Virus record (IMG/VR): IMGVR_UViG_3300042452_000250
Location: 1 to 33,458 of that record
DNA: 33,458 nucleotides
Source: a virus
Direction: 5' to 3' (one strand)
The notes under the pieces were generated by a model. The model did no database searches. It was not told where the DNA came from and saw only the letters and a list, made by a program, of their open reading frames with translations. How positions within the stretch are numbered: the stretch's first letter is position 1; every line of letters starts with the position of its first letter. Shown here piece after piece: positions 1,408-24,776 of this stretch. The translations under genes were made by a program, and so were the position numbers.

Positions 1408-1416
1408 AGGTTAATC

Positions 1417-1983: not shown

Positions 1984-2038
1984 GTTAAGTGAAGAGAATT
2001 GTTTGTGGGGGGTCGGTTTCCTTCCCCCCGATGACATT

Positions 2039-2097
2039 AGTATGGCAGAGGGTGGGGGTCACCGCAAGGGGGTGTGTGCCACTTCAACGATTGGCAC
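2039..2097 (-). promoter_or_regulatory. 24-mer promoter module: -10 at 2039-2044, 24-mer at 2074-2097
   Basis: CATACT lies 29 bp from TGTGCCACTT-CAAC-GATTGGCACA. This is the most symmetric copy at its ends, with GTGCC and GGCAC arms. The stop of 2084-2983 is inside it. It drives 1417-1983. Confidence 0.7.
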
Positions 2098-2983
2098 ACT
2101 GAAAGCGTCCGCTGTTGAAGTTAGCGTTAGAAAAGACCTCACGATTGACCAGTTTGAACATACCAAACTGATTCACCAGAACGTAACCCTCAGAGTCGAT
2201 TCTGTTGCCGTAGAGATAAGCGGCAGGACCATCATTGCGGCAGATGAACAAACAGTCATCTTTGATAGACTTCACCAATTCCCACAAACGCAGCAGGTTA
2301 GCATCACAATCGAAATCCTCAGGGTTGATCTCTTCACCAGCACGAATGCAGGCGTTGATCTGTTGTTTGATCTTTGCTGCCTCTTTATCACTCACGAACT
2401 GTGCAGTGGTTGCCATTTGACGGGCGAACTTACACACCTCTTCAACATCAGCGAACGAATCCTGATTGTGCAGGATGTATGCATTCGGTTTCACGAACTT
2501 CACCGTTTCAGTATCAGTCCAGGTGCTACGGTCAGGGAATGCCTGAGCATCACGAAGATCACTCTCAGCATAATAGCAAGTGTGAGGGGCGATGATAATT
2601 TTCTGGGAAACTACATCGGGGAACTGATACGTAATGGTGTTGGATTTGTATTCAGTATCACCACCGAACCCGATGAAGTCTGCCTGATAAATTGTCTCAA
2701 AGCGGGGCAGATAATCAAAGCACGAATGCAGAATGTCTGCCACGTTGCCTTCATAGTGTTGATCAATCTCATCGTGAGAGTGAGCAATACGAATCTTCTT
2801 TTTGTTGAATACTGCTTTCGTGCCCACGAAGAATGTACCCGTTGCAGGATCAATCCCCCACACAATTGCAGGGGCGCCATCAATCTTGACGCTCAGATTG
2901 CCAGGCGTCACGAACCAATCCAGGACAGAAAGATCACCCGTGAGGATGGTATCTTCGGGGTGCTCGAGGTGTGTGTTTTTCAT
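2084..2983 (-). CDS. KxDG nucleotidyltransferase/ligase-like protein (299 aa)
   Basis: Residues 33-36 read K-I-D-G in the context LSVKIDGAPAIVWG, resembling motif I of ATP-dependent ligases and capping enzymes, where the lysine is adenylylated. A following strand FFVGTKAVFNK (about 51-61) fits the rest of such a fold. I recall similar proteins in T4-like cyanophages filed as an uncharacterised family (possibly DUF6267). Ligase activity is inferred from the motif only. The start is MKNTHLEHPED at 2983; the -10 CATACT ends only 7 bp upstream, so the mRNA may be leaderless. The stop lies in the regulator site of the next unit. Confidence 0.7.
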   Translation of the reverse strand: MKNTHLEHPEDTILTGDLSVLDWFVTPGNLSVKIDGAPAIVWGIDPATGTFFVGTKAVFNKKKIRIAHSHDEIDQHYEGNVADILHSCFDYLPRFETIYQADFIGFGGDTEYKSNTITYQFPDVVSQKIIIAPHTCYYAESDLRDAQAFPDRSTWTDTETVKFVKPNAYILHNQDSFADVEEVCKFARQMATTAQFVSDKEAAKIKQQINACIRAGEEINPEDFDCDANLLRLWELVKSIKDDCLFICRNDGPAAYLYGNRIDSEGYVLVNQFGMFKLVNREVFSNANFNSGRFQCANR

Positions 2984-2989
2984 GCTGTT

Positions 2990-3049
2990 AGTATGGCACG
3001 GAATCGGGGGGTCTGGGCGGTTTGGTGGACACTTGCCCAACTGGCACAG
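2990..3049 (-). promoter_or_regulatory. 24-mer promoter module: -10 at 2990-2995, 24-mer at 3026-3049
   Basis: CATACT is 30 bp from the 24-mer (plus TGGACACTTG-CCCA-ACTGGCACAG). CCAAACCGCCC follows the 24-mer in the direction of transcription. It drives 2084-2983. Confidence 0.7.
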
Positions 3050-11299: not shown

Positions 11300-11357
11300 A
11301 TTATAGCAGAAAACCCGCCTTGTGGGCGGGTCGTGTACCAGTTATTAAAGTGTCACT
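11300..11357 (-). promoter_or_regulatory. 24-mer promoter module with nested terminator
   Basis: -10 TATAAT 11300-11305; 24-mer TGTACCAGTT-ATTA-AAGTGTCACT 11334-11357; 28-bp spacer. The spacer is the CCCGCC/GGCGGG terminator (11314-11330) of 11353-11757, whose TGA is inside the 24-mer. Confidence 0.75.
11308..11330 (-). terminator. Intrinsic terminator after 11353-11757
   Basis: Six-bp stem CCCGCC/GGCGGG, loop ACAA region, followed on the minus strand by TTTTC. It is nested between the 24-mer and the next -10. Confidence 0.8.
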
Positions 11358-11757
11358 TGTTCATTTGCAAAGTGGGAACAGGCATTCCACCTTCGGTAGG
11401 AACATAGATCGTCACGTTACCTTTGTTCGATCCTTCTTCCAGTCCAGTGATATAAAGATATTGAAGATACTCACGATTATCTTTCAGCGAATTGCCAATG
11501 ATTTGGTTTGCTTTTGCAACACCAGTAGCACGAATAACTTCAGCATCAGCAAGTTGTTGGGCAGAGTCTTTCTTTGCCTGTGCTTCCAGAACTGCTACCT
11601 GGCGAGTATATTCTGCCTTTTGCAGTTCAGCTTTACCTTGTAGAGATTGTGCCCACACATTGTAAAGTGGACCAACCACAGCATTGATAATCATCAAAGA
11701 CAGAAGAAAAGAAACGCCGATGATACCAGCGTTGCGGAGAGTGTTATCAGGTTTCAC
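11353..11757 (-). CDS. SPFH/prohibitin-like membrane protein (134 aa)
   Basis: A membrane helix (about residues 10-32, GIIGVSFLLSLMIINAVVG) is followed by a coiled segment rich in Ala/Gln/Lys (KAELQKAEYTRQVAVLEAQAK), then DAEVIRATGVAKANQIIG and YLQYLYITGLEEG, the arrangement of the C-terminal half of band-7/prohibitin proteins. The full SPFH domain (about 180 residues) is missing its first part. Such proteins form membrane rings; in phage their role is unknown. Last gene of the 13809-11353 run. Confidence 0.8.
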   Translation of the reverse strand: MKPDNTLRNAGIIGVSFLLSLMIINAVVGPLYNVWAQSLQGKAELQKAEYTRQVAVLEAQAKKDSAQQLADAEVIRATGVAKANQIIGNSLKDNREYLQYLYITGLEEGSNKGNVTIYVPTEGGMPVPTLQMNK

Positions 11758-12201: not shown

Positions 12202-12684
12202 TCAGAGTTTGAAAGGAGAAACAATAATACGAGGTTCAACATAAACAGGACGAGTCTTACCACTACCATCAGGGTCAGAACACATCACCCAAGTTCCTTC
12301 TGCACTATCAGGAGAGAATAGACCATTAGGATCTGCCTGTGGAAGAGTTGTTCCACTCATTTCATATTTTTCTGGATTGGTGTATTGTGTAGCAGCAGGG
12401 AGACCATAACCAATAGAGTTGCACAGAAACACAGGACGACCAGTAGTTTCGGGAACAGTGTAAGTATAAGTCACCAGACCATCTTGGTCACGCATTTCAA
12501 TAATCTGCTTCAGCAACTTACGTTCACGGAAGTTCTTAATGGCAGGCATACCACTTTGAGCAGTTCCTTCCTTCAGAATTTGTTCTTGTTGATAACGTTG
12601 AGTATCATCTGAGTTCTCTTCAATACAACCAGTCAGAGTAAGACCAAGAACAGCAAGTGCAGCAACAGAAACGATGGTTTTCAT
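12202..12684 (-). CDS. Lipoprotein (160 aa)
   Basis: A lipoprotein signal MKTIVSVAALAVLGLTLTGC has the lipobox L-T-G-C with Cys at 20, so the mature protein would be lipid-anchored. The rest reads RERKLLKQIIEMRDQDGLVTYTYT, then RPVFLCNSIGYGLPAATQYTNPEK and VYVEPRIIVSPF. I recall this lipoprotein in diverse phages. It could act in superinfection exclusion or envelope modification, but no direct evidence is visible. ATGA-type coupling with the next gene upstream. Confidence 0.85.
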   Translation of the reverse strand: MKTIVSVAALAVLGLTLTGCIEENSDDTQRYQQEQILKEGTAQSGMPAIKNFRERKLLKQIIEMRDQDGLVTYTYTVPETTGRPVFLCNSIGYGLPAATQYTNPEKYEMSGTTLPQADPNGLFSPDSAEGTWVMCSDPDGSGKTRPVYVEPRIIVSPFKL

Positions 12685-12998
12685 TGAGGAAGATTAGAGA
12701 TAAAGGATTGAAGATCAGAAGGCATAGCATCGGCAGGAACTTCTACAGCACGATGCCGAATAATATCTGCAAGTGCTTTCTTATGTTCGGGCGATGCTTT
12801 GATATATTCAAACTGCATATTTTGTAGTTCTTGAACAGCACCAGTTCGGAAGGACTTTGATTGCTCAAAGGTATTCCTACGAACATTCTCAAACTTAGGA
12901 GCAAAGAATGACGTAAAGATCAGTTCGTGATAAGCAATACCCCAAGTCAGAGCACCCAATCCAACGACACCACCGACAATAGCAAGAATAGGTTTCAT
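12681..12998 (-). CDS. Membrane-anchored helical protein (105 aa)
   Basis: Membrane segment ILAIVGGVVGLGALTWGIAY near residues 4-23, then FENVRRNTFEQSKSFRTGAV and a helical domain FEYIKASPEHKKALADIIRH. The FEQSKSFRxG block is familiar from phage envelope-linked proteins. Overlaps the lipoprotein start (ATGA). Confidence 0.8.
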   Translation of the reverse strand: MKPILAIVGGVVGLGALTWGIAYHELIFTSFFAPKFENVRRNTFEQSKSFRTGAVQELQNMQFEYIKASPEHKKALADIIRHRAVEVPADAMPSDLQSFISNLPQ

Positions 12999-13000: not shown

Positions 13001-13192
13001 TCAGTTGTAAGTGCAGAGTTGTGTCATTCTACCATACTGGATACCTTCAGACCATTTGCCACCAGCACTGATACAATCTTGTTTGGAAGGAAGAATGGAG
13101 TTTCCTGTGGCAATACTAAACAAAGCAGCACATCCAATACCAGCAATAGCAACAACAATCATCAGTTCAACAAGAGTGAATCCGTTTTTCAT
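13001..13192 (-). CDS. Prepilin-like protein (63 aa)
   Basis: The N-terminus MKNG-FTLVELMIVVAIAGIG is a textbook type IV prepilin/pseudopilin signal: Gly at -1, Phe at +1, Glu at +5 (residue 9), then a hydrophobic helix. A short C-terminal domain follows with C40-I-S-A-G-G-K-W and C60, a likely 20-residue disulfide loop. It is far shorter than pilins (usually 130-170). The same CIxxGGxW...C loop occurs in 29880-30047. It could be processed by the host prepilin peptidase and interfere with host pili; this is inference. Confidence 0.8.
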   Translation of the reverse strand: MKNGFTLVELMIVVAIAGIGCAALFSIATGNSILPSKQDCISAGGKWSEGIQYGRMTQLCTYN

Positions 13193-13377
13193 TTTGAAGA
13201 AACGTTAGATTTGAAAATAAGATTGGCAAGAAAAATAATGGCAAAGTTCTGCCAGAATGACAAGGTTACACCAAACCAAGACAAAATAAGTCCAAGCAAC
13301 CATGCTTCAAAGAATAGTCCAGCAACGGCAAGGACAATTACACCAAAAGCAAAACCAAGAGCAGTAGAAGTTTTCAT
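13189..13377 (-). CDS. Two-span membrane protein (62 aa)
   Basis: MKTSTALGFAFGVIVLAVAG begins the first hydrophobic segment; LGLILSWFGVTLSFWQNFAI gives the second. Short basic end IFKSNVSSK. The start overlaps the next stop and its stop overlaps the prepilin start, so the set 13377-11353 is a membrane-protein cassette. Confidence 0.75.
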   Translation of the reverse strand: MKTSTALGFAFGVIVLAVAGLFFEAWLLGLILSWFGVTLSFWQNFAIIFLANLIFKSNVSSK

Positions 13378-13894: not shown

Positions 13895-14028
13895 CAATCC
13901 ATTGTGAACTTTTTCTTAGGTGCTTTGATTACTTTTTCAGTTTTAACTTCTACCACTTCTTCAACCTTTACAGGTTCTGGTGTTTGTTCAGGTGCTGGTT
14001 CTTGAAAAAGATCTGTAAATCTAGACAT
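13894..14028 (-). CDS. Small Pro/Glu/Lys-rich protein (44 aa)
   Basis: MSRFTDLFQEPAPEQTPEPV then VEEVVEVKTEKVIKAPKKKF. A low-complexity, probably disordered tether of the kind found next to T4-like structural genes. It begins 23 bp after an AATAAATA late-type box (14051-14058), which suggests virion-phase expression. Confidence 0.7.
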   Translation of the reverse strand: MSRFTDLFQEPAPEQTPEPVKVEEVVEVKTEKVIKAPKKKFTMD

Positions 14029-14050
14029 TTTTATTGGGAGTAACTAAATG

Positions 14051-14058
14051 TATTTATT
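14051..14058 (-). promoter_or_regulatory. Late-type promoter octamer AATAAATA
   Basis: Minus-strand AATAAATAC matches the NATAAATA element reported for T4-like cyanophage late promoters. It lies just upstream of 13894-14028. Confidence 0.6.
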
Positions 14059-14060
14059 TT

Positions 14061-14273
14061 TCAGTCTTCGTAAACTCTACATTCTGGAGCATCTGGATGA
14101 GTATCACAATAAAGTTCCAGTGGTGTAGGATCGTGAGAATCTTCTGGATGATTTTCTTTATATGCTTTAAGCGCCTCTAATTCTTCTTCCGTGTGTCTCC
14201 TTGATTGTGGAGAAATCAAAGGATCACTCAAAAGATCTTCATCCCTTTGAATATGTTGGTCGATGTTATCCAT
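14061..14273 (-). CDS. cp12: CP12-like protein, Calvin-cycle inhibitor (70 aa)
   Basis: The C-terminal 17 residues, LYCDTHPDAPECRVYED, match the CP12 signature: two Cys (C56, C65) eight residues apart in a redox loop, then the acidic tail that binds GAPDH. In plants and cyanobacteria CP12 docks GAPDH with phosphoribulokinase and turns off carbon fixation; cyanophages carry versions thought to divert NADPH and carbon to nucleotide synthesis. The N-terminal Cys pair of full CP12 is absent, and a charged helix (HTEEELEALKAY) takes its place. A late-type octamer lies upstream at 14295-14302. Confidence 0.8.
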   Translation of the reverse strand: MDNIDQHIQRDEDLLSDPLISPQSRRHTEEELEALKAYKENHPEDSHDPTPLELYCDTHPDAPECRVYED

Positions 14274-14294
14274 TGTTTTGTATCGTGATAATAA

Positions 14295-14302
14295 TATTTA
14301 TT
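14295..14302 (-). promoter_or_regulatory. Late-type promoter octamer AATAAATA
   Basis: Minus-strand AATAAATATT, 22 bp upstream of the CP12 ATG and just after the stop of 14306-14512. Same octamer as at 14051-14058. Confidence 0.6.
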
Positions 14303-14305
14303 TTC

Positions 14306-14512
14306 TTATTCGCTTAATGAGTTACCTCGCCAGTTTTTTGGTGGCGGGGGATCACATTTTCCTTCAAGTGAGCGAACCATAAGTTCTGCAAATTTTTCCA
14401 TTTTTTGAGCAGAAACTGTTTGTGGAGCATAACTAATTGCATCTTTAAGTGCAACAAGTTCATTCCACTCTTCTTCGGTAAGAATTTCTGTGCTTGTTTT
14501 AGGTAAAGTCAT
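14306..14512 (-). CDS. Conserved small protein (68 aa)
   Basis: MTLPKTSTEILTEEEWNELV then ALKDAISYAP, QKMEKFAELMVRSLEGK and a PPPPKNW tail. The EIxTEDEWNELVALKDAI and MEKFxELLVRSLxGK blocks are typical of T4-like cyanophages in my recollection. A -10-like TAATAT lies about 25 bp upstream, but no 24-mer does. Confidence 0.85.
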   Translation of the reverse strand: MTLPKTSTEILTEEEWNELVALKDAISYAPQTVSAQKMEKFAELMVRSLEGKCDPPPPKNWRGNSLSE

Positions 14513-14596
14513 CAGATTTCTGCAAGGTGTCCCAATATTAGCATTTCAATACATTACTATCTAGAAACTTAATGTTTTCTTTGGGATCACGTTACA
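14513..14596. other. Short intergenic gap
   Basis: 84 bp with no gene. It contains a TAATAT hexamer (minus) and a CTAGATAG stretch. It may hold a weak promoter for 14306-14512. Confidence 0.4.
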
Positions 14597-14959
14597 TTAC
14601 TTAATGAAGTCATCAAGTCTATCAAGATCATCTTTGAGATCTTTTTCGTTTTTCTGATCATGAAAGAAACTCCATAAGGCATTATGGACATCCATCAGAT
14701 GATCAATCCAGAAACCAGCAGGATAAATCCCGAGTTCATCTTGCAGACCACGATGAGAACAACCTTCTTTTTCTGCCTTACACATGATGTAGCAGATTGC
14801 TTGAACCATATCAAGTTTGTCAGATTCGGAAAGCATAAAATACTTTCCTACTGCACGTTGCTTCGATTCTTCAAGATCTTTTTGAAGTTTTTTAAAATCA
14901 TCGGAGTCCCACCACTTTTGTAGAGATTTGCCAAGATCATTTTTTTTATTTTCTTCCAT
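14597..14959 (-). CDS. Conserved hypothetical protein (120 aa)
   Basis: MEENKKNDLGKSLQKWWDSD begins a charged helix; the core reads MLSESDKLDMVQAICYIMCK, then AEKEGCSHRGLQDELGIYPA, GFWIDHLMDVHNALW. The EKEGCSHRGLxxxLGIYPxGFW-LMDVHNAL block is a recognisable cyanophage family, unknown in function. It follows the methyltransferase by 3 bp. Confidence 0.85.
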   Translation of the reverse strand: MEENKKNDLGKSLQKWWDSDDFKKLQKDLEESKQRAVGKYFMLSESDKLDMVQAICYIMCKAEKEGCSHRGLQDELGIYPAGFWIDHLMDVHNALWSFFHDQKNEKDLKDDLDRLDDFIK

Positions 14960-14962
14960 TTT

Positions 14963-16429
14963 TTAGTTTGACCGAACAATAAATTGATACATTTGAGTAA
15001 ATGTGTGAGGATTTTCTTCTTCAAATAATTCCCAATTATTTAAGTTAGTCATTGACTTATCGCTGGGAAAGTAATTTAAATATTCTTCTTTTATAAAGTT
15101 AGGCAAATTAAATCCACAAAATTGTAAATTACATTCATCTAACAAAGAATTAATTTCTTTAATGGTGAACTGGTGTTCACATGCATGAAAACAAAGATCT
15201 CTACATGTAGATAATCCATAAAAATCAATGGACATTGTTGTTAAATCTTCAAGTTCTTTTAGATCTCCAGAAAAAACTTTCTTTCTAAATTCTCTGATTC
15301 CTTCTGGTGTACATTCAATACCAAGAGTCTTTATTATTTCATGCGCTTTTCTAATTGAAGATCTTGCTATTTTACTATACAAACCTAACTTCATATATCC
15401 ACCAGTATGTAAAGAGTCACACAAAGATAGTAATCCAAGTTTTGGATTTTCCATGTGATGCAAAACACCACCACATTCTATTAAATTAAATTTTTCCCCC
15501 AACTGTTTAAGATTTAATATATCCATGTGTATAAATCTTACGTCATTCATCCCATATTCTTGTGCTTTTCTTTTAGCATAACAAAGACTGTTTTCACTAA
15601 GATCGATCGCAGTGATTTTTGCATTATAATAACTGCTTGCAGATATTACTTGCTGACCAGTTCCACACCCTGCAATTAAGATTTTAGGTTCTCGTATTAA
15701 TGAAAGATTTAAATTTAGATAATTTGTATGTATTGATGCCCTTAGGTCAACTTCCAGAGAAACTGCCGATTGTTTAGGAGTAAAATAAACATATCTCCAT
15801 TTTGGATATGGATTTTCAAGATATTGATTTCTGACCTTTTCAGATATATTATTTTGTATTACTCCAATTTTTTCTATTGTTTTTGATAGTTTTAACTCTT
15901 CTAATGGTTCTTTGAGTTGAATTTTAAATAAAGATCTTTCAAATTTTGTTCTAGGAATATGGTCTTTAATTGATGGAACTTCATCAACAAGATTGTAGAG
16001 AGGAATATAGCAAGAAATAATTGATAGTAAAGAAAGATCTTCTTTACATTTTTCTTTTAGAACTTTTAGAGCGGATAATTCTTCTTCACTCACTTCATAA
16101 ACATAATCCGTCATAAAACACTGAACTGCCAAAGATTGCAGCAGGGATGTCAGATCTTTTGAAGGATTAAAATCATTTACAGATTTTAGGCATACATTTT
16201 TACGAAAATTAGTGAGTGCTCTTTCCCAAGATAAGTCGGGAATTAGCATTAAAATCAGAGACTCTTTAAATTTTCTGTCTTTTAAAATTTTTGTACTAAT
16301 ATTATTGTAGTCTGTTAAATTTTCGAAAATTATTAAATACTCATCATAAAATTCAAAAAATAAATTAACAAATGAAGTATGGAAAATATCTTTTCTTTTT
16401 AATAACTCAGAGTATCTCTTATCATTCAT
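14963..16429 (-). CDS. SAM-dependent methyltransferase with N-terminal helical region (488 aa)
   Basis: Class I methyltransferase motifs: motif I LIAGCGTG (251-258), acidic post-I residue in AIDLS (D276), VRFIHMDILN (about 297-306), and motif IV-like ECGGVLHHM (318-326). Before it, ENPYPKWRYV (205-214) and a helical region including LAVQCFMTDYVYEVSEEE resemble large methyltransferases of marine picocyanobacteria, sometimes fused to TPR repeats; substrate unknown. Start MNDKRYSELL at 16429 overlaps the upstream stop by 8 bp. The gene is AT-richer than its neighbours and the longest in the window, suggesting acquisition from a host. Confidence 0.85.
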   Translation of the reverse strand: MNDKRYSELLKRKDIFHTSFVNLFFEFYDEYLIIFENLTDYNNISTKILKDRKFKESLILMLIPDLSWERALTNFRKNVCLKSVNDFNPSKDLTSLLQSLAVQCFMTDYVYEVSEEELSALKVLKEKCKEDLSLLSIISCYIPLYNLVDEVPSIKDHIPRTKFERSLFKIQLKEPLEELKLSKTIEKIGVIQNNISEKVRNQYLENPYPKWRYVYFTPKQSAVSLEVDLRASIHTNYLNLNLSLIREPKILIAGCGTGQQVISASSYYNAKITAIDLSENSLCYAKRKAQEYGMNDVRFIHMDILNLKQLGEKFNLIECGGVLHHMENPKLGLLSLCDSLHTGGYMKLGLYSKIARSSIRKAHEIIKTLGIECTPEGIREFRKKVFSGDLKELEDLTTMSIDFYGLSTCRDLCFHACEHQFTIKEINSLLDECNLQFCGFNLPNFIKEEYLNYFPSDKSMTNLNNWELFEEENPHTFTQMYQFIVRSN

Positions 16430-16652
16430 CTTTTCCAAAGATAGTTCCAAAGAATCCAGAGTCTCCTGGTCTACGATTTTCAAGTTTATCAAGAATCGCA
16501 TCAGTGCTTTGCAGTGATTCAATACGACTGATAAGGTCTGCAATCACACTGCAAACCATAGGGCGTTCTTGACGAGCAGCGTATGCCAGTGCATTACGCA
16601 AAGATGCTTCTGCTTCTTTCAGGGATTCTTCAACAGATTGTGATAGTGCCAT
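16422..16652 (-). CDS. Conserved helical protein (76 aa)
   Basis: MALSQSVEESLKEAEASLRN then ALAYAARQERPMVCSVIADL and ESLQSTDAILDKLENRR. The MALSQSVEESLKEAExxLRNAL opening is strongly conserved in cyanophages as I recall. Probably two long helices. Overlaps both neighbours by a few bases. Confidence 0.85.
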   Translation of the reverse strand: MALSQSVEESLKEAEASLRNALAYAARQERPMVCSVIADLISRIESLQSTDAILDKLENRRPGDSGFFGTIFGKDE

Positions 16653-16846
16653 TAAAATTCACTCCTTCTTCTAGGTGGTTCAGGTTTTGATTTATAAAAA
16701 CAATATTCAGGAAGTTCTACTTTCTGCTCTTTGAAATAAGAACAGAGTTGTTTTACATCATTTGGATATTCACTATTGTATAATGCCGAATTGATATTGT
16801 CAAGATGGCAAAAAATATTATATCCACAAATAAGTATCCCTATCAT
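16652..16846 (-). CDS. Small hypothetical protein (64 aa)
   Basis: A hydrophobic start MIGILICGYNIFCHLDNI, then NDVKQL-CSYFKEQKVELPEY and a basic end RRRSEF. Could be secreted or membrane-associated. TAATG coupling to 16422-16652. Confidence 0.65.
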   Translation of the reverse strand: MIGILICGYNIFCHLDNINSALYNSEYPNDVKQLCSYFKEQKVELPEYCFYKSKPEPPRRRSEF

Positions 16847-17409
16847 CCTTTGATCCAGAATCCATCGTCAGTCATACTCCACCCACCTTCCATTGCCTGA
16901 TCCCAAGTCATATTATCTGGACTAACTTTTTCAGTTCTCTTTACAACTTTTTTTAGAAGATAAGAACCATCACCTTGATCCACCCATTCTACTTGATCTC
17001 CTTCTTTAAGATTTGCTGCTTCCAAAAGATCATCAGGGAAAGATACGATATAATCTTCTAGATCATCGCTTACTTCAACAGGAAGAACCCACTTCTTCAC
17101 TTTATCTTTTTTATTTGCAACAAGATATTCAAGATCGCTATGTCCCCAAGGTGGCATAGATGGTTCATAATATTCCTTTTCGCGCATCACAGCATCATAT
17201 GCCTCAATATGACCCTTACCATTGCCATTCAGAAGGCAAAGAAGATCATAACAACGACCAGCATGATGTTTGAAGTAATGATATTCTTCATCTACAACAC
17301 CTTTGATAGTATCGTAAACTTCTTGCGGTGTTGCTTCTGCACTGGTAAGAGCATCTCTCACCCATGTTTCAAGTTTTTCAAGTGAATACTTTTTGTAGTC
17401 AAAGTCCAT
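16843..17409 (-). CDS. Protein with AbrB/MazE-like C-terminal domain (188 aa)
   Basis: The N-terminal domain (MDFDYKKYSLEKLETWVRDA, then GVVDEEYHYFKHHAGRCYDL) is helical. About residues 110-155 read WVLPVEVSDDLEDYIVSFPD, LLEAANLKEGDQVEWVD, QGDGSYLLKKV, the pattern of a swapped-hairpin AbrB/MazE DNA-binding domain. It may be a transcription factor or antitoxin-like regulator. Start 17409 chosen because it overlaps 17399-17557 by 11 bp. No partner toxin is adjacent. Confidence 0.75.
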   Translation of the reverse strand: MDFDYKKYSLEKLETWVRDALTSAEATPQEVYDTIKGVVDEEYHYFKHHAGRCYDLLCLLNGNGKGHIEAYDAVMREKEYYEPSMPPWGHSDLEYLVANKKDKVKKWVLPVEVSDDLEDYIVSFPDDLLEAANLKEGDQVEWVDQGDGSYLLKKVVKRTEKVSPDNMTWDQAMEGGWSMTDDGFWIKG

Positions 17410-17557
17410 TAGTAAAGTCCTTGATCGCTTCTTCAATAATAACCTGAATTTCCTTTGAAGTCAATCCATTCAACCATTTCCAATTTGGATCTTCTTTGTC
17501 CCAGTCCATTGTAAAGGATCCATCTTCATTTTGGGTTATTTTAAGACTATCTTCCAT
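17399..17557 (-). CDS. Conserved small protein (52 aa)
   Basis: MEDSLKITQNEDGSFTMDWD then PNWKWLNGLTSKEIQVIIEE. The DSxKITQNEDGSFTMxW and LNGxTSKEIQxxIEExI blocks look like a cyanophage family I remember. Overlaps the 2OG oxygenase end by 11 bp. Confidence 0.8.
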   Translation of the reverse strand: MEDSLKITQNEDGSFTMDWDKEDPNWKWLNGLTSKEIQVIIEEAIKDFTNGL

Positions 17558-18140
17558 TGATTCCATACTTTTCATTTAACTCATGAACTAATTTAGGGGT
17601 CATAAAATTCATATTAATTAAGACTCTACATTTATTTTTTGATGGAGAATGCCCAGTATGTTGCATCAATCCATCAAAAATCAGTAATCTATTTTCAACT
17701 GGTTCAACCTCATGTAAGATAGATTTTCCTTCTCTATCAAGTAAAATTGTATTTCCGTCACTTGTGTTCAAGTAAAAAATAGCAGTCATGTGCTCATACT
17801 GAAAATCTGTATGAAGTTCATGACGATGATTTAAAGGATTGAATACTGTCATATCTCCCCTTGCTCTAACTATTTCCATAGGTTGATTGATAATCTCCTC
17901 AACCTTTTCTTGTGCGGAAAAAACTAATGCTTTTGTTAGAGTGCTTTCATACCCACCAGTAAAATATCCATTCCAATGAAGTTTTATCGCAAATCCAAAA
18001 GATCCAAGAACTTCTTCAGATTCATCACCAGTCAAACTGCCATTAAAGGACCAGTTGCAATAATCACTGAGAAAGTGGTCTTGCAAATCTCTAAGGTAAG
18101 GTTTTGGCAACAGATCATCAATTACTTTAAAATATTTCAT
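17547..18140 (-). CDS. 2OG-Fe(II) oxygenase family protein (197 aa)
   Basis: Facial triad: H110-T-D112 (ELHTDF) and distal H161 (MQHTGHSP), with R172 (CRVLINMNF) positioned to bind 2-oxoglutarate. The double-stranded beta-helix strands AIFYLNTSDGNTILLD and RLLIFDGLMQHTG are clear. Such enzymes hydroxylate proteins, nucleic acids or small molecules; T4-like cyanophages carry several of unknown substrate. Start MKYFKVIDDLLP at 18140, overlapping the neighbouring oxygenase by 14 bp. Confidence 0.85.
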   Translation of the reverse strand: MKYFKVIDDLLPKPYLRDLQDHFLSDYCNWSFNGSLTGDESEEVLGSFGFAIKLHWNGYFTGGYESTLTKALVFSAQEKVEEIINQPMEIVRARGDMTVFNPLNHRHELHTDFQYEHMTAIFYLNTSDGNTILLDREGKSILHEVEPVENRLLIFDGLMQHTGHSPSKNKCRVLINMNFMTPKLVHELNEKYGINGR

Positions 18141-18735
18141 CTTCTTCAAATACATCTAATGACTGAACTTCATGTATAAAGAATGTGAATGTCATTCTTC
18201 CAGTTTCTACCGAATCCCCAAATACATCAGAAAGGGCATGAATTCTTGTTCCTTCATATGCAACTAAACGATTATATTTGTTTTCAACATTTATCATCTG
18301 ATTATTTCTAGCATCAAATACGCTAGTACCAGCATTTAAAGGAGCATCAGGACTCAAATACACAACACCAGCAGCAGCAGTATCAAAATCTTTATGAAAT
18401 CTATCTTGCCAAAAATCAGGAAAAGCGTTTCGGGTTTCCTCAGTAGTGACGTGAAAATATGTTGTTATGGTAAACTCTTCTGCTGGATTTTCTGGGTCAT
18501 ATGGGAAAACAAAATTATCCAAGTCAAAATATTCATGGCAAATATTAAAAATATCCTTAGCATACCCATCCAAAATAGGATTATTTAATTTTCTAAGAGG
18601 TGGAGTTCTTTGACCCCTCCAACTAGTTGGTGGAATTGCAAGACTATTATTGACTCTATACTTACCATGAGAAAGACCCATATTTCTAATTAGATTTGGA
18701 TCTTCAAAGTAATTATCTTTAATTAATATTTTCAT
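18127..18735 (-). CDS. 2OG-Fe(II) oxygenase-like protein (202 aa)
   Basis: Second oxygenase-like gene: H114-K-D116 (RFHKDF), distal H166 (RIHALSD) and R180 (GRMTFTFF). N-terminal KDNYFEDPNLIRNMGLSHGK and SWRGQRTPPL resemble a family I recall near DUF6445. It differs in sequence from 17547-18140, so the pair is not a recent duplication. Start at MKILIKDNYF, 18735; an upstream in-frame ATG lies inside the zinc-ribbon gene. Confidence 0.8.
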   Translation of the reverse strand: MKILIKDNYFEDPNLIRNMGLSHGKYRVNNSLAIPPTSWRGQRTPPLRKLNNPILDGYAKDIFNICHEYFDLDNFVFPYDPENPAEEFTITTYFHVTTEETRNAFPDFWQDRFHKDFDTAAAGVVYLSPDAPLNAGTSVFDARNNQMINVENKYNRLVAYEGTRIHALSDVFGDSVETGRMTFTFFIHEVQSLDVFEEDEIF

Positions 18736-18736
18736 G

Positions 18737-18943
18737 TCAGTTTTCTTTTGGTTTTGGTTTACTACATTCATTACAATAATATGAATAACCGTCACGAAAA
18801 TATTTTACAACTTGAAAATTGTCAGAGTTTAGTAATTTCTCTTCACCACATTTATCACAAATCTTGGTCTTTTTTGATGGACTTTCTAATTTTTTTGAGT
18901 TCTTTAAGTTCAGTTTTAATATTTTTGTAAGCAGTGTCAGCAT
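18737..18943 (-). CDS. Small zinc-ribbon protein (about 68 aa)
   Basis: A CxxC...CxxC ribbon is clear: KICDKCGEEKLLNSDNF and YYCNECSKPK. This ribbon type often accompanies HNH nucleases or acts alone in phages. The start is uncertain (18943 or 18970), and both overlap 18855-19034 extensively; the ribbon itself lies beyond that overlap. Confidence 0.6.
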   Translation of the reverse strand: MLTLLTKILKLNLKNSKKLESPSKKTKICDKCGEEKLLNSDNFQVVKYFRDGYSYYCNECSKPKPKEN

Positions 18944-19034
18944 CCAATTTTCCTCCCATTTCCAGTGCAATGATTATATCAACTCTGGTTCCAAAATGTG
19001 CAAGTGCTTTTTCGAAATCGTCTAGGTCATACAT
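18855..19034 (-). CDS. Conserved small protein (59 aa)
   Basis: MYDLDDFEKALAHFGTRVDI then IALEMGGKLDADTAYKNIKT and a Lys-rich tail KELKKIRKSIKKD. ATG 19034 overlaps the previous stop. The block FGTRxDIIIALEMGGKLxADxAY is familiar from cyanophages. Helical, possibly nucleic-acid binding because of the basic tail. Confidence 0.8.
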   Translation of the reverse strand: MYDLDDFEKALAHFGTRVDIIIALEMGGKLDADTAYKNIKTELKELKKIRKSIKKDQDL

Positions 19035-19248
19035 CGTAATTAATTCTACAATGCTCGGCAAGAATATCTATACGAGCATCAAGAGAATTTTCCATACGAT
19101 AGAGTTCATTAGTGGTTTCTACATTTTCTACTTCTAAAAGTTCAATGCGATTTTCCAACTCAATAAGTTTGGTATAAAGATCTATATGATCTTCTACAAT
19201 TGGTTTTTCTGATGGAGAAAGTAACCAGTTAATAACTTTATTAATCAT
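19027..19248 (-). CDS. Coiled-coil protein (73 aa)
   Basis: The core DLYTKLIELENRIELLEVENVETTNELYRMENSLDARI has clear heptads. The tail DILAEHCRINYDV follows. A helical oligomer or adaptor is likely. Overlaps both neighbours. Confidence 0.75.
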   Translation of the reverse strand: MINKVINWLLSPSEKPIVEDHIDLYTKLIELENRIELLEVENVETTNELYRMENSLDARIDILAEHCRINYDV

Positions 19249-19475
19249 TTTTTTAACTCACGAATTTCGGTTAGAACCCATAACATTTCATCTTGAAGTC
19301 TTTGTATACGTTCATCAAATGATTTGATCCATTCAATAATCATATAACTTTCACCAGTTTCTTCATTTTTAACTGTATAATAATAATCACCCGTATCCTC
19401 TTTTTCATAAGGATACAGGCGTTGTTCCCAATCAGAAACTATTTTCCAAAGTAGTATTCTGATTTTTCTAATCAT
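19245..19475 (-). CDS. Small hypothetical protein (76 aa)
   Basis: Basic start MIRKIRILLWKIVSDWEQRL, then YYYTVKNEETGESYMIIEWI and a coiled-coil end RIQRLQDEMLWVLTEIRELKK. The end resembles that of 19027-19248 in heptad character. Starts with a TAATG overlap. Confidence 0.7.
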   Translation of the reverse strand: MIRKIRILLWKIVSDWEQRLYPYEKEDTGDYYYTVKNEETGESYMIIEWIKSFDERIQRLQDEMLWVLTEIRELKK

Positions 19476-19639
19476 TATAGCACACCTACTTCTTTCAAAT
19501 AGTTTCTATATCTCATAAAACGATTCCAGTTTGGTTGTCCTTGAATATCTAATTGATGACAAATTTCACAATAACATAACCACTCATACCAAGGTGTCGT
19601 AGGATCTAATACATGATATGGATAATCAGAGTTTTCCAC
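19475..19639 (-). CDS. Small Cys-rich protein, GTG start (54 aa)
   Basis: Frame VENSDYPYHVLDPTTPWYEW then LCYCEICHQLDIQGQPNWNR. CxCxxCH suggests a metal site. No ATG lies in frame before a stop; the GTG at 19639 is inside the end of 19626-19835, a normal overlap here. Confidence 0.65.
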   Translation of the reverse strand: MENSDYPYHVLDPTTPWYEWLCYCEICHQLDIQGQPNWNRFMRYRNYLKEVGVL

Positions 19640-19835
19640 CTACTTCCGACTCATAAGTTTTGGATTCAGGGAAACCTTCCTGCCGTCCTTTAAGATAAAA
19701 ATGTGTCGCTGAGATACACTGCTGTTCAGTGAGAGATGTGATAAGTCCGTTACCATCTTTGTCAGTTGAATACCAGAGTCCATACTTTTTTTGCTCAACG
19801 TAGAAGACATCATCAATTAGTTTCTTTTCGGTCAT
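19626..19835 (-). CDS. Conserved hypothetical protein (69 aa)
   Basis: MTEKKLIDDVFYVEQKKYGL then SLTEQQCISATHFYLKGRQEGFPESKTY. The VEQKKxGLWYSxDKxGN, LTExxCISATxFYLKGxQEGFPES blocks are familiar in cyanophages. Unknown function. Confidence 0.85.
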   Translation of the reverse strand: MTEKKLIDDVFYVEQKKYGLWYSTDKDGNGLITSLTEQQCISATHFYLKGRQEGFPESKTYESEVGGKL

Positions 19836-19944
19836 TAACTTGTTTTACAGTTTCGTGAAGTTGTTTCAGTGCCTCGATGGTTTCGGGAGTTTCTTCCCAT
19901 TCCCAAGAGTTTCCATTTTTATCAATAAAAGTTCTTGTCGTCAT
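19813..19944 (-). CDS. Small protein (43 aa)
   Basis: MTTRTFIDKNGNSWEWEETP then TIEALKQLHETVKQV. A TFIDxNGNSWEWEETPE opening and a helix. Overlaps 19626-19835 by 23 bp. Confidence 0.75.
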   Translation of the reverse strand: MTTRTFIDKNGNSWEWEETPETIEALKQLHETVKQVNDRKETN

Positions 19945-20120
19945 TTTTCCTCTGAGTATTTGTATCCAATAGTGTAATCTTTCTTTTTAAGATTATATCG
20001 TGCAATGTGCTTTTTCATATGATCTTCGGTTTGAAAATAGCACTTGCGGGTTTCTTTTCCCTCTTTATGAACCAACTTCCAAGGAAACTGATCAAAGGGA
20101 AAGTCTTCGGTGTAGTCCAT
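19941..20120 (-). CDS. Small basic protein (59 aa)
   Basis: MDYTEDFPFDQFPWKLVHKE then RKCYFQTEDHMKKHIARYNL. The CYFQxExHxxxHIxRYxLKKKDYTxGY pattern is familiar and hints at a zinc or nucleic-acid binding fold with Cys/His. ATGA overlap with 19813-19944. Confidence 0.75.
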   Translation of the reverse strand: MDYTEDFPFDQFPWKLVHKEGKETRKCYFQTEDHMKKHIARYNLKKKDYTIGYKYSEEK

Positions 20121-20281
20121 CAGGTAGGTTTCTCAACACGTTGAGTATAGACGGAATCGAACAGTTCGTCAAGTATCTCACCACACTGGTGATACTCTTT
20201 GCTGTCCAACACCGTTTTCTCAAACTGGTAACGACGCACGGCAGTAAAGATCAGTTTATATTGTTCAGGGGTAAAGTTCAT
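20120..20281 (-). CDS. Small helical protein (53 aa)
   Basis: MNFTPEQYKLIFTAVRRYQF, then CGEILDELFDSVYTQRVEKP. The MNFTxxQYxLIxxAVRxYQ start recalls a cyanophage family. Overlaps both neighbours by TGATG-type junctions. Confidence 0.8.
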   Translation of the reverse strand: MNFTPEQYKLIFTAVRRYQFEKTVLDSKEYHQCGEILDELFDSVYTQRVEKPT

Positions 20282-20757
20282 CACATTTCTCCAAGTGTAT
20301 GAATCACAGGTTTTTCGTGTGCAAGAATACGATATAGATCTTCGTTCTGTGCTGCTGATATTGGAATGAACTCCGTCTTATCATCAAATTCATCATCACG
20401 TATCGCTTGGTTGATTACTATTGATCCTTCTTCTCCTGACCAGGATCTATGATAAGTTCTCTGAGGAATGACCAGAGCACCAGAACTGCGATTAAGATGA
20501 ACGATATGATAAGGATACCTCCACTCAGGATTTACAAGTTCAAATGTGCGAATGCCAGACAGAACACGATTGTGATCTACCTGGTGATAATGAATGTAAA
20601 ACTGTTTTGCTCCTACAATATCATCAGGAGGAGAAATAGCAGGTCCTTCGTGAACTACAAGGTCAGATGCGTTCGAACCTTCTACCGAAATATCGTAGAA
20701 GATAACTGACTGAGTTTCACGGAATACTCTATGTTTTTTAAAACTTACTTCGCTCAT
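20281..20757 (-). CDS. Conserved protein, possible cupin-like fold (158 aa)
   Basis: MSEVSFKKHRVFRETQSVIF then AKQFYIHYHQVDHNRVLSGI, YPYHIVHLNRSSGALVIPQR, TYHRSWSGEEGSIVINQAIR. The HxxxxH region and GALVIPxxTYHRSxSGxxGSxVINQAxRD block look like a cupin-type beta barrel; I recall this in T4-like cyanophages without an assigned enzyme. Carbohydrate or sugar-nucleotide chemistry is possible but unsupported. Confidence 0.75.
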   Translation of the reverse strand: MSEVSFKKHRVFRETQSVIFYDISVEGSNASDLVVHEGPAISPPDDIVGAKQFYIHYHQVDHNRVLSGIRTFELVNPEWRYPYHIVHLNRSSGALVIPQRTYHRSWSGEEGSIVINQAIRDDEFDDKTEFIPISAAQNEDLYRILAHEKPVIHTLGEM

Positions 20758-20951
20758 TAGTCGTAAAGATTTTGCTCCTGATTCAATCTATCTATGTGAT
20801 GATAAATCGTCTCTTGTGAGTATTGAAACTCATTAAAACGTCTTGGATTATTTTGTTGCATTTTATTTAACATATTAATCCAGTCGTAGCGTTTATCTAC
20901 AACCCACCCGTAACGGCGTTCATCGTGCATCAAATCATACATTGAGATCAT
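20757..20951 (-). CDS. Small hypothetical protein (64 aa)
   Basis: MISMYDLMHDERRYGWVVDK, then LNKMQQNNPRRFNEFQYS. Aromatic- and Asn-rich, basic. The ATG overlaps the previous stop (ATGA). Unknown. Confidence 0.7.
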   Translation of the reverse strand: MISMYDLMHDERRYGWVVDKRYDWINMLNKMQQNNPRRFNEFQYSQETIYHHIDRLNQEQNLYD

Positions 20952-21139
20952 TTGAACCCCTTACTCTTCTTTTTGTCCAGAACTTCAATATGACTCAAAA
21001 AGTTTCCACCACGTTGAAACCAAGTAAGTTGAACATCCTCATAATTATCAAAGATGACCTCTTTACCATCTTCAAAGATGACTTTATAATTGTGGCGATC
21101 ATATGGTTTATCGCAAGTTTGTTTAAATGTCTGAGTCAT
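20948..21139 (-). CDS. Small basic beta-rich protein (63 aa)
   Basis: MTQTFKQTCDKPYDRHNYKV, then FEDGKEVIFDNYEDVQLTWF and a Lys-rich end DKKKSKGFK. A compact beta barrel is likely. ATGA overlap with 21136-21318. Confidence 0.75.
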   Translation of the reverse strand: MTQTFKQTCDKPYDRHNYKVIFEDGKEVIFDNYEDVQLTWFQRGGNFLSHIEVLDKKKSKGFK

Positions 21140-21318
21140 TTTAGGTAATGAGGTTTTTCAGAATCAAATGTTGTCCACTTTGCTATTTTAAGGCACATCA
21201 GCAAAGTTTGGTGTTCACGCTTATACAGTTCCCAGTCTTGTTTGAGTTTCGCAGCATAACGACGACGATAGGCACAGCACCAAACATTATGGAATATTTT
21301 ATCCTTTTCAGTCATCAT
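21136..21318 (-). CDS. Small basic protein (60 aa)
   Basis: MMTEKDKIFHNVWCCAYRRR, then LKQDWELYKREHQTLLMCLK. Basic helices with three Cys. Start ambiguous between adjacent ATGs, both overlapping the stop of 21308-21655. Confidence 0.7.
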   Translation of the reverse strand: MMTEKDKIFHNVWCCAYRRRYAAKLKQDWELYKREHQTLLMCLKIAKWTTFDSEKPHYLK

Positions 21319-21655
21319 CCCATGGTGCTTTACGACTCATTAGTTCTTTAATTCTTTCTACCACAGCAGGATCTTGTGGTTCATTGATTCGTCGCACAAG
21401 TTCATCATATGCTTCTGCGGATACGATAATCCTTTCTGGTTCTTCTGCTAATCGTAACCTGCGTTCTGGACTGATAGTTGGATAATAAGGATCATCATAT
21501 GGAAAGATATATTCTCTATACCATCCAATACTTAAACTCTCCCAGAACTCACCATATCCCCAAGTATCACCGTCATCATAACAGTCAAGAATATAAAGGA
21601 CATTACGAAATCCATCAAGGAAGAGTTCCCATTTTGTTGGATTTTCAAATCTCAC
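21308..21655 (-). CDS. Hypothetical protein with antitoxin-like C-terminal segment (115 aa)
   Basis: The N-terminal half (MRFENPTKWELFLDGFRNVL, then ESLSIGWYREYIFPYDDPYY) is unassigned. The end reads PERIIVSAEAYDELVRRINE, then PAVVERIKELMSRKAPWDD, which resembles the VSxxAYDxLVxxLxxP...L-RRxxPW tail of DUF1778-type antitoxins. No toxin gene is adjacent, so an antitoxin role is not supported. Confidence 0.7.
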   Translation of the reverse strand: MRFENPTKWELFLDGFRNVLYILDCYDDGDTWGYGEFWESLSIGWYREYIFPYDDPYYPTISPERRLRLAEEPERIIVSAEAYDELVRRINEPQDPAVVERIKELMSRKAPWDDD

Positions 21656-21846
21656 GGCGTTTCATCGCTCCAATAATAATTTAGTTTATCACCATCTGCG
21701 TGAATATTCAAGTGGTAAATCTTTTTGTCTTGTGTGTAAATGCCCACCCACAGGCTCCGTTCGTTCATACTTTCCAGGTGAAACATTTCTACCTCTTCCA
21801 GTACAATTTCGTCTGGATTTTCTTCCCACCTTACTAGTTTAGTCAT
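21652..21846 (-). CDS. Small hypothetical protein (64 aa)
   Basis: MTKLVRWEENPDEIVLEEVE then RSLWVGIYTQDKKIYHLNIH and KLNYYWSDETP. Beta-rich. ATG 21846 chosen over an upstream in-frame ATG because it overlaps the previous stop. Confidence 0.75.
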   Translation of the reverse strand: MTKLVRWEENPDEIVLEEVEMFHLESMNERSLWVGIYTQDKKIYHLNIHADGDKLNYYWSDETP

Positions 21847-22061
21847 TTTACCTCCCAAAACCTACCATCAGGACCACAAGAATAATCAAGTCCTTCCCAT
21901 CTATTTGACCTCAACATATCACAAAATCTGTTCTCATTACCAGTTACAAGATTTTGTGAAGTATTTGGTGATTTACAAGTATCGTGCCTGTGTCCCATTC
22001 CAAATAGATGAGACAACCAATCTTTACGATAATACTTACAATCTTTACAGAGTTTAGTCAT
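21843..22061 (-). CDS. Cys-rich small protein, probable metal binder (72 aa)
   Basis: MTKLCKDCKYYRKDWLSHLF, then RHDTCKSPNTSQNLVTGNENR, FCDMLRS and YSCGPDGRFWE. CxxC near the N-terminus plus three further Cys form a putative zinc-finger-like domain common in phages and bacteria. Overlaps the next start. Confidence 0.8.
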   Translation of the reverse strand: MTKLCKDCKYYRKDWLSHLFGMGHRHDTCKSPNTSQNLVTGNENRFCDMLRSNRWEGLDYSCGPDGRFWEVK

Positions 22062-22612
22062 TATGCTACTCCATCAGCACTATCTTTGAACTCTTGTACT
22101 CTTTTCAGAAACTCATCACTCTGAAGATACAATCCTTTAATCAAATCCTTGATGTCATCAATCGCAATGACATTATACTCCATATTCATATTTTCGCAGA
22201 TGAGTGCGTCAATCATACATTCTAGTGCCATTGCTTGCATATGTTCTGGTGTAATAGGTGTCCCGTGCGGAAGACCAGAACATTCTTCATTATAGAAGTG
22301 ATTATACCGTCGCAGAACAGTATCACTTCGTTCTTTGCGTTCCCATTCTTGTTTTGCAAGTTCTCTGTTTGCTAACTCACGACGCTCTGCTTCCTCAAAC
22401 ATTGCGTCAGGATATGGCTCTTGATTACTCATAAGTTCCAAAACTTTTTGATCAATAGCATCTTTCATTTTTTTCATATCCTGTTCGTAGATAAGTTTCC
22501 TCAGTTGTTCTTTGCCGTATTCAGTAAGTTCGTGTTTTTTGTTACGGAGTTCTTCTACTTCTTCTGGATTGAGTAGAAACCCATCAGGAATGTGACCGTA
22601 TTCTTCAATCAT
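22061..22612 (-). CDS. Long helical protein (183 aa)
   Basis: The opening MIEEYGHIPDGFLLNPEEVE is followed by long charged helices (ELTEYGKEQLRKLIYEQDMK, FEEAERRELANRELAKQEWERK) and a C-terminal helix YLQSDEFLKRVQEFKDSAD. Mainly coiled-coil/helix. Acidic and basic residues alternate, suggesting a scaffold or adaptor. No motif recognised. Confidence 0.7.
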   Translation of the reverse strand: MIEEYGHIPDGFLLNPEEVEELRNKKHELTEYGKEQLRKLIYEQDMKKMKDAIDQKVLELMSNQEPYPDAMFEEAERRELANRELAKQEWERKERSDTVLRRYNHFYNEECSGLPHGTPITPEHMQAMALECMIDALICENMNMEYNVIAIDDIKDLIKGLYLQSDEFLKRVQEFKDSADGVA

Positions 22613-22733
22613 TGTTGTTTATAAAAAATAAATGTATCCAACGATTAATCCAATAGGTAGCAGTTACAAGAAACAACCATAATCCGATAAGACCAAAAAA
22701 TAGAATAAACTCTTTAAGTTGTTCATTAGACAT
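22605..22733 (-). CDS. Tiny membrane protein (42 aa)
   Basis: MSNEQLKEFILFFGLIGLWL, then FLVTATYWINRWIHLF: one membrane segment. The start is 5 bp after the stop of 22739-22936. A very hydrophobic single-span protein. Confidence 0.7.
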   Translation of the reverse strand: MSNEQLKEFILFFGLIGLWLFLVTATYWINRWIHLFFINNND

Positions 22734-22738
22734 TTTCC

Positions 22739-22936
22739 TCACCCATATCGTTCATTTTGTTCCATAGCATATTCTTTTTGACATTCCAGTTCTCTTTCAA
22801 GTGCTTCAATTCTATCACACAACTCGGTAATAATGTGTATCAAAGAACGATAGTCAATACTTTCAATATCATCCCCATTTTCCATATCAGGATAATATGT
22901 GTATAGGAGTTCTTTCTCAAAGTCGCGTTCAGTCAT
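22739..22936 (-). CDS. Acidic helical protein (65 aa)
   Basis: MTERDFEKELLYTYYPDMEN, then IIHIITELCDRIEALERELECQ. A coiled-coil helix near the end. Overlaps the start of 22605-22733 by no bases but is spaced by 5 bp. Unknown. Confidence 0.75.
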   Translation of the reverse strand: MTERDFEKELLYTYYPDMENGDDIESIDYRSLIHIITELCDRIEALERELECQKEYAMEQNERYG

Positions 22937-23499
22937 CGCAGCATCCCCTTGATTTCATTTAAACAATCGTTGTATCCTTCCACAACTATTTCAACAAAAG
23001 TATTTTGACTTCCTGATGCTGATTGTTCTTTCGGCAACCAATCTTCTACCAAATCTACAATATCATTACAGGCATCAAAATCATAACCAAGTTCATCTAC
23101 CAATCTATTAAAAAGTTTTCGTGCTTGATATTTTTTCACCAACCTATTCACCACATCATCCATAGGTTTTGGATTATCTTTTTCATCCCATTCTACTTCA
23201 TCATAATACTCTGGTTCATCAGGACACTGTGGTTCAGTATTTTTTTGTGTAATAACCTCATTATAATAATCATCTTCTCTTACCTTCTCTTCATATGCTG
23301 CCTGAAAACCTGCTTGGAAACCCCTCCACCTCATATCATCATACTTGGAGTCAGTTTCCAATTCAGGATACTTGCCGAAAACTTCTTTATATGCTTCTTC
23401 TACTGGTGTTTTTGGTTCTTCCACTCTCTTATATTTCACACCCATAATGGTTGCATAGTCTCCTTCTATGAGAACTTTTGAGATGTCGGTTTCAGTCAT
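22933..23499 (-). CDS. Acidic hypothetical protein (188 aa), paralogue-like C-terminus
   Basis: MTETDISKVLIEGDYATIMG, then VKYKRVEEPKTPVEEAYKEV, FGKYPELE and a central acidic DDYYNEVITQ region; the end reads DACNDIVDLVEDWLPKEQSA and EGYNDCLNEIKGMLR. The VKYxxVEEPK motif and the WLP...NDCLxxIKxxLR end also occur in 25376-25693, which looks like a shortened paralogue. Confidence 0.75.
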   Translation of the reverse strand: MTETDISKVLIEGDYATIMGVKYKRVEEPKTPVEEAYKEVFGKYPELETDSKYDDMRWRGFQAGFQAAYEEKVREDDYYNEVITQKNTEPQCPDEPEYYDEVEWDEKDNPKPMDDVVNRLVKKYQARKLFNRLVDELGYDFDACNDIVDLVEDWLPKEQSASGSQNTFVEIVVEGYNDCLNEIKGMLR

Positions 23500-23737
23500 T
23501 GTTAGTCAGTCCTACTTTGGTTCCTTCAAGTCTACCACTATTATACCCCACCACGAACGCAGAGTGCAACCACTTATACATCAAATCCTGACGGGTCTTT
23601 ACATCTTCTACCTCCGCATCACCAAAGAACCATTCACTACGAAATGAAAAACCACCACAAAGGTCATTAAACCATTCCTGAAATGCGTCTTCAATTGTAT
23701 CATCAAAGTCCCAATCTTTTGTAGGATGGTTAGTCAT
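23492..23737 (-). CDS. Hypothetical protein (81 aa)
   Basis: MTNHPTKDWDFDDTIEDAFQ, then SFRSEWFFGDAEVEDVKTRQ and a helix VVGYNSGRLEGTKVGLTNND. ATG 23737 preferred (ATGA overlap with 23734-23919); the longer open frame to 23824 would overlap it in another frame. Confidence 0.75.
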   Translation of the reverse strand: MTNHPTKDWDFDDTIEDAFQEWFNDLCGGFSFRSEWFFGDAEVEDVKTRQDLMYKWLHSAFVVGYNSGRLEGTKVGLTNND

Positions 23738-23919
23738 AGAATGTAAGGTTGCTGTGGGTCTTCTTTCCAAACTTCCTTGTAAATAATCCAAGGCTCTTCT
23801 GTATGTGTCATCTGAGCAGTCCAATGTCGTCCATTTTCATCAACCGCATCAAGATAATGAATGCGTGTCTTTGGGTCAATCACTCGTGTGATGTGTGTGA
23901 ATTTTACTCGTTCAATCAT
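23734..23919 (-). CDS. Small beta-rich protein (61 aa)
   Basis: MIERVKFTHITRVIDPKTRI, then YLDAVDENGRHWTAQMTHTE and EPWIIYKEVWKEDP. A strand-turn-strand domain. Coupled to both neighbours. Confidence 0.75.
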   Translation of the reverse strand: MIERVKFTHITRVIDPKTRIHYLDAVDENGRHWTAQMTHTEEPWIIYKEVWKEDPQQPYIL

Positions 23920-24257
23920 TTTACTCCAAGTTGTTTGAGTTCATCATCAGTCAAGGAAGCAAGGTCTTTCTTGAGTTGTTGAAGTTTTCGTTCTTTTGCT
24001 TTTGCCTTGTCTGCCTTTTCTTTCTCCAGTTGTTTTACTCGTTTCTCATACTCTTTGTCAGTTTCTTCACGATGCTTGTAAAGATAAGGAACTTCTTGGT
24101 CGTGACAATCACCATAATCTCGTTCATATTCAATCACAATACCTTCCCAACCAGCATCCAATTCCCTCTGGAGTGAAGCAATAATACTATCAAGAGGACC
24201 ATCAAAATCCCCCCAGTATCGTTGAGTTTCTTTGACTTTGATGCGTTTGATAGTCAT
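23916..24257 (-). CDS. Hypothetical protein with charged C-terminal coil (113 aa)
   Basis: The N-terminal half reads MTIKRIKVKETQRYWGDFDG, then GWEGIVIEYERDYGDCHDQE; after YLYKHREETDKEYEKRVKQL there is a Lys-rich coil and the end LASLTDDELKQLGVK. The same closing motif (LARLTDEEKELLGVK) ends the adjacent 24254-24580, so the two share a C-terminal module. Confidence 0.75.
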   Translation of the reverse strand: MTIKRIKVKETQRYWGDFDGPLDSIIASLQRELDAGWEGIVIEYERDYGDCHDQEVPYLYKHREETDKEYEKRVKQLEKEKADKAKAKERKLQQLKKDLASLTDDELKQLGVK

Positions 24258-24580: not shown

Positions 24581-24581
24581 T

Positions 24582-24755: not shown

Positions 24756-24776
24756 CGGTTTGTTTCTTATGAAGTC

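Follow-up and report, generated by a model that had tools for sequence, protein, structure and literature searches.

A short prepilin-like protein family of cyanophages joins a class III signal to a conserved, virus-only C-terminal module

Short phage proteins with a prepilin signal are represented by the Vibrio phage KVP40 group (KVP40.0030, phrog_13280, 66 aa) and by gp97 of Acinetobacter phage Acibel004 (107 aa). A phage prepilin therefore has a precedent. In the limited collection of literature that we searched, none of the papers dealt with a prepilin made by a phage. The Pseudomonas phage anti-pilus proteins (Tip, Aqs1, and the Pf phage protein of PMC8764522) act on the pilus assembly machinery and are not known to carry a prepilin signal; the outcome attributed to them, blocked pili and superinfection exclusion, resembles the one proposed below. 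Among bacterial proteins, Geobacter PilA-N (geopilin, 61 aa; PDB 2m7g, 6vk9) is a very short pilin whose N terminus carries the same motif. In prepilins, Gly-1 is critical for processing, whereas Glu5 is dispensable for processing and needed for homopolymeric assembly, with Glu5 mutants still entering mixed filaments (PMC4471445). The subunit that caps pilus tip complexes lacks Glu5, and system-specific minor pilins are instead positioned along the length of the filament (PMC10191384).

Here we describe a 63-residue protein, MKNGFTLVELMIVVAIAGIGCAALFSIATGNSILPSKQDCISAGGKWSEGIQYGRMTQLCTYN, referred to as the mini-prepilin, which is encoded on IMG/VR virus record IMGVR_UViG_3300042452_000250. 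The window analyzed comprises positions 1 to 33,458 of that record, and its nearest named relative is the reservoir cyanophage S-SRM01. The protein resembles the KVP40-group and Acibel004 proteins in being short and having a prepilin signal, but its C-terminal part is unrelated to theirs. Specifically, only residues 3 to 31 of the window protein matched phrog_13280 (E 8e-4), whereas KVP40.0030 matched this family end to end. Its match to Geobacter PilA-N was likewise limited to the N terminus (E 0.01 to 0.6), and geopilin lacks the hairpin module described below. In KVP40 itself (L110:2501-2701), the mini-prepilin adjoins thymidylate synthase and has one Cys only; 29 Vibrio phage records contain a match to it.

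The class III signal and its relatives

The mini-prepilin reading frame spans exactly 13001-13192 on the minus strand (Table 1), as the original prediction stated, and the full prepilin signal that it reported is evident in the sequence. The protein scored 33.3 bits against Pfam N_methyl (curated cut-off 21.2) and 26.6 against TIGR02532 IV_pilin_GFxxxE (curated cut-off 16.3). By these profile matches it carries a genuine class III (prepilin) signal, and across the whole window it was the sole match, with no second class III-signal gene.

Table 1. Coordinates of the mini-prepilin, its parts, and associated genes in the window
Feature	Position	Strand	Basis
Mini-prepilin gene, 63 aa	13001..13192	minus	Pfam N_methyl and TIGR02532 above cut-off; 41 IMG/VR relatives
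Leader MKNG; Gly-1 is its last residue, followed by the predicted PilD cleavage site	13181..13192	minus	Gly-1 in 25/27
Hydrophobic helix α1N with Phe+1 and Glu+5 (residues 5-28)	13109..13180	minus	Glu+5 26/27, Leu+6 27/27; AlphaFold2 helix 7-28
Virus-only putative cystine-hairpin module KQDCISAGGKWSEGIQYGRMTQLCTYN (residues 37-63)	13004..13084	minus	Invariant residues with synonymous variation; predicted helix 37-42, strands 46-52 and 55-61
Membrane protein directly upstream, stop overlapping prepilin start (ATGA)	13189..13377	minus	phrog_4743; 20/40 loci
Membrane-anchored protein directly downstream	12681..12998	minus	15/40 loci and S-SRM01
Lipoprotein, lipobox LTGC	12202..12684	minus	Sequence; 15/40 loci
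Membrane protein of a "membrane protease subunit" family, tail prohibitin-like	11353..11757	minus	phrog_11227 E 2.6e-49; 23/40 loci
Second small membrane protein, 55 aa, CxxxGGxW...C on ordinary transmembrane helix	29880..30047	minus	Motif scan, zero in shuffles; AlphaFold2 pLDDT 91

Three scans of viral contigs revealed 41 relatives of the mini-prepilin in IMG/VR, some of them in records of 224 to 258 kb. At least two of these large records (G018 and G021) contain psbA, and the relative-bearing records are therefore cyanophages; our impression, judged by the nearest named phage and host, is that the relatives are mostly freshwater. The expectation that homologs with the motif would be found in other cyanophages was thus borne out, and its two key residues proved to be conserved. 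Among the 27 distinct relative sequences over which all conservation counts were taken, the hydrophilic leader is short (4 to 6 residues across the family) and ends in Gly-1 in 25, the exceptions having Ser once and Glu once. The hydrophobic helix of ∼21 residues that follows retains Glu+5 in 26 of 27 sequences, encoded by GAA in 18 and by GAG in 8. Phe or Tyr at +1, Thr at +2, and Leu at +6 are found in all 27, the Leu through five different codons. Because synonymous changes have left Glu+5 in place in a helix whose positions +9 to +19 are freely variable, selection appears to act on Glu+5 beyond mere membrane insertion. In L027, L028, and L031 the helix is almost entirely different, yet G[FY]T[LI]xEL is retained. 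The single relative without both Gly-1 and Glu+5, L026, keeps the C-terminal module. The long α1C stalk and globular head that also characterize type IV pilins are missing from this 63-residue protein, in which AlphaFold2 predicts nothing beyond α1N except a short helix and a single hairpin.

The gene was present in all 26 virus records searched, with one match each in 25. In the remaining record, that of L104, a tandem duplication in the helix gives two matches within a single frame; here, ELLICCAIGGI is repeated within the hydrophobic segment (L104:5001-5222). Several other copies are broken or fused. L034:491-637 and L035:5925-6126 fuse the beginning of the upstream membrane gene to the C-terminal module, in frame in the former and out of frame in the latter, an intact signal is absent from L033:5800-6114, and L019:6001-6204 reads off into a different C terminus. 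These four cases could be either deletions or assembly errors.

A tblastn search with the full protein, for which E-values are limited because the query is a single sequence of 63 aa, found no true relative among 50,697 named phages. Two weak matches to T4-like baseplate proteins were set aside as short matches. A pattern scan of genome contigs found no relatives in bacterial genomes. S-SRM01 gave no N_methyl match in its whole genome and has a different short open reading frame at the corresponding place.

A conserved C-terminal module

The Cys pair that the original prediction placed in the short C-terminal part was confirmed, as C40 and C60 are invariant in the 27 distinct relatives. What had been missed is that, by sequence comparison, this part of the protein is the most conserved, is found only in viruses, and has a layout that is also present on ordinary membrane anchors, including one in this window. 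The last 27 residues, with the consensus KQxCxxxGGKWsEGiqyGRxTQLCTYN, are more conserved than the prepilin signal, with a pN/pS of 0.25 over the C-terminal 28 codons compared to 0.50 over the signal. Within the module, the first Cys, GGK, E, G, G, and the final TQLCTYN are invariant among the distinct relatives, with many synonymous codons. The module was searched for in viral contigs by DNA pattern, and it was absent from every bacterial genome and named phage searched.

An AlphaFold2 model based on 19 sequences, which is of modest quality (mean pLDDT 73, pTM 0.33), predicts helices at residues 7 to 28 and 37 to 42 followed by strands at 46 to 52 and 55 to 61. C40 falls within the short helix, and C60 is part of the last strand, an arrangement that suggests a C40–C60 disulfide, and in this predicted fold the hairpin is probably disulfide-clamped. 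Foldseek searches of the viral and PDB libraries returned no significant match.

The same layout occurs on proteins with plain anchors. We defined this group by a membrane helix followed by C-x3-GG-x-W/Y...C near the C terminus; applied to 13,446 open reading frames, the strict pattern identified three proteins beyond the mini-prepilin family, against a shuffle mean of 0.0. These are the second small membrane protein of the window, L137 in G018, and one protein in L088. The AlphaFold2 model of this second small membrane protein of the window (three-sequence alignment) has a helix at residues 2 to 34 and strands at 38 to 44 and 47 to 53, and thus the same topology as the mini-prepilin model, a helix plus a hairpin with one Cys on the helix end and the other on the second strand. 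Kinship between the two is not proven, as the layout-sharing sequences are ∼30% identical to one another and structure searches gave no significant match. Nevertheless, the recurrence of the layout on ordinary anchors suggests that the mini-prepilin is a viral cystine-hairpin module that has been given a pilin address, and these plain-anchored proteins, together with L026, therefore indicate that the module can work without pilin processing.

Host pilins and possible roles of the mini-prepilin

Host-side analyses were centered on the genome reached via L233, Synechococcus sp. 1G10, which has a phage-like psbA, and the picocyanobacterial genomes of its family served as the presumed host type of this phage. 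Prepilin peptidase (PF01478) was encoded by 102 of 121 picocyanobacterial genomes and by none of 29 phage records, in line with the earlier suggestion that a host enzyme could process the protein. The phage profile matched pilins in 120 of 201 host-type genomes, and nearly all of these matches were confined to the signal (positions 2 to 33, a few to 42). An hhalign comparison of the profile with 30 PilA-type pilins of the host type aligned no more than the first 22 columns (probability 97.9). The C-terminal module alone gave no match to host pilins (hhalign E 0.44). Picocyanobacterial PilA-type and minor pilins thus resemble the phage protein in their class III signal, and many have a Cys four residues from the end. 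The PilA-type pilins examined are about 115 to 200 aa, however, whereas the 63-residue phage protein has only the hairpin module, which is unlike them. A C-x-[FYLIW]-x ending is found in 26 of 57 host pilins, and the phage protein ends in CTYN. That CTYN copies the end of host PilA was suggestive, but we dropped this idea given the profile E-value of 0.44 and the presence of CTYN inside the module of the L088 protein.

We propose that the virus probably supplies the host pilus machinery with a sham component. Host PilD would cut the mini-prepilin after Gly-1, producing a 59-residue membrane protein with its putative disulfide-clamped hairpin facing the periplasm. The kept Glu+5 would let this protein dock to host pilin subunits, after which it would either be built into the type IV (or competence) pilus in the manner of a minor pilin or stall growth of the pilus. 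As a result, pili would be changed or shut down during infection. We consider processing by host PilD highly probable, and the combined proposal, that the cut protein goes on to enter or jam the type IV pilus, to be evenly balanced. We infer cleavage, docking to the pilus, and a consequence for the host or for rival phages; the keeping of Gly-1 as well as Glu+5 is consistent with a subunit that is processed and then docks to the pilins of the host. Counting against a role in the pilus are the lack of an α1C stalk or full pilin head, the short leader, the dissimilarity of the module to host pilins, its retention in L026 without Gly-1 and Glu+5, and the layout on plain anchors. We find rather unlikely a further version, in which the protein is a viral minor pilin and infected cells display the phage cystine-hairpin on their pili by means of the host pilus machine, for example masking or retuning the pilus against rival phages or switching off DNA uptake and motility, while a second phage protein keeps a similar hairpin in the inner membrane.

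The main rival to the pilus reading is that the protein is a pilus-independent effector, its prepilin signal being one anchor among others that hold the hairpin at the inner membrane on its periplasmic side; from that position the effector would influence DNA entry, superinfection exclusion, or envelope stability. The plain-anchored proteins of the window, G018, and L088, the persistence of the module in L026 after loss of the pilin motif, the strongest selection falling on the C-terminal module, and the membrane proteins encoded next to the gene all favor such an effector. It leaves unexplained why Glu+5, which is dispensable for insertion and processing, is retained in 26 of 27 relatives, and we regard it as possible but doubtful. 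A different effect on the host is suggested by Synechocystis, in which unprocessed PilA1 prepilin leads to loss of SecY and YidC and PSII synthesis stops (PMC8546353); a mini-prepilin that occupied PilD and the Sec/YidC translocon might similarly throttle host membrane protein synthesis. However, PilA1 toxicity requires the loss of PilD, at least G018 and G021 encode psbA and would want a working PSII, and the invariant C-terminal module would have no explanation, all of which make such an overload improbable.

Pseudomonas phage F10 has a prepilin-domain gene between its tail genes, as might be expected if the mini-prepilin were a virion or tail component inserted into the membrane ahead of assembly. 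This seems very improbable here, as no virion genes were identified around the mini-prepilin and its presence is patchy among close relatives, with S-SRM01 lacking the gene. Finally, although the open reading frame is short, the 41 relatives, the pN/pS values of 0.25 to 0.50, and the cut-off-level family matches leave a negligible chance that it is spurious or its signal fortuitous. As a conserved family that joins a host pilin address to a virus-only module, the mini-prepilins would offer a direct handle on how cyanophages reshape host surfaces, competence, and rival infection, and they predict a testable role for the similar genes in KVP40-type and Acinetobacter phages.

Neighboring genes and other features of the window

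The genes around the mini-prepilin are tightly packed, and the proteins encoded directly upstream and downstream both contain hydrophobic membrane segments. The original prediction proposed that these genes form an envelope-modifying cassette, and the membrane-protein neighbors are indeed partly conserved among 40 loci (Table 1), where the counts, made by hand from a table, are lower bounds on presence because several loci are short. An obligate link did not hold up: none of the neighbors of the window is found at 7 of the 40 family-bearing loci, and in S-SRM01 most neighbors are present and the prepilin is absent. We thus view the cassette as a local arrangement confined to closer relatives. 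The neighbor that had been called SPFH-like belongs to phrog_11227, a viral "protease / membrane protease subunit" family, and matched a PDB prohibitin chain only weakly (E 0.004), and the assignment is thus plausible but weak.

Promoter and terminator scans gave results that were not clearly above those from shuffles. The G+C content changes from 58% in the first kilobase of the window to about 29 to 39% beyond 14 kb (1-3000 compared with 14000-33458), and the first 3.6 kb still match cyanophages. Beyond the neighborhood of the mini-prepilin, a 526-residue protein (14963-16543) contains a methyltransferase domain at residues 288 to 390 (Pfam Methyltransf_25) and has no assigned domain in its first half. 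Two adjoining proteins at 17547-18795 are 2OG-Fe(II) oxygenase-like; their PHROG labels, DNA endonuclease V for one and minor coat protein for the other, look doubtful. Between these genes, the protein encoded at 16843-17436 has a MazE/AbrB-type domain at its C terminus.
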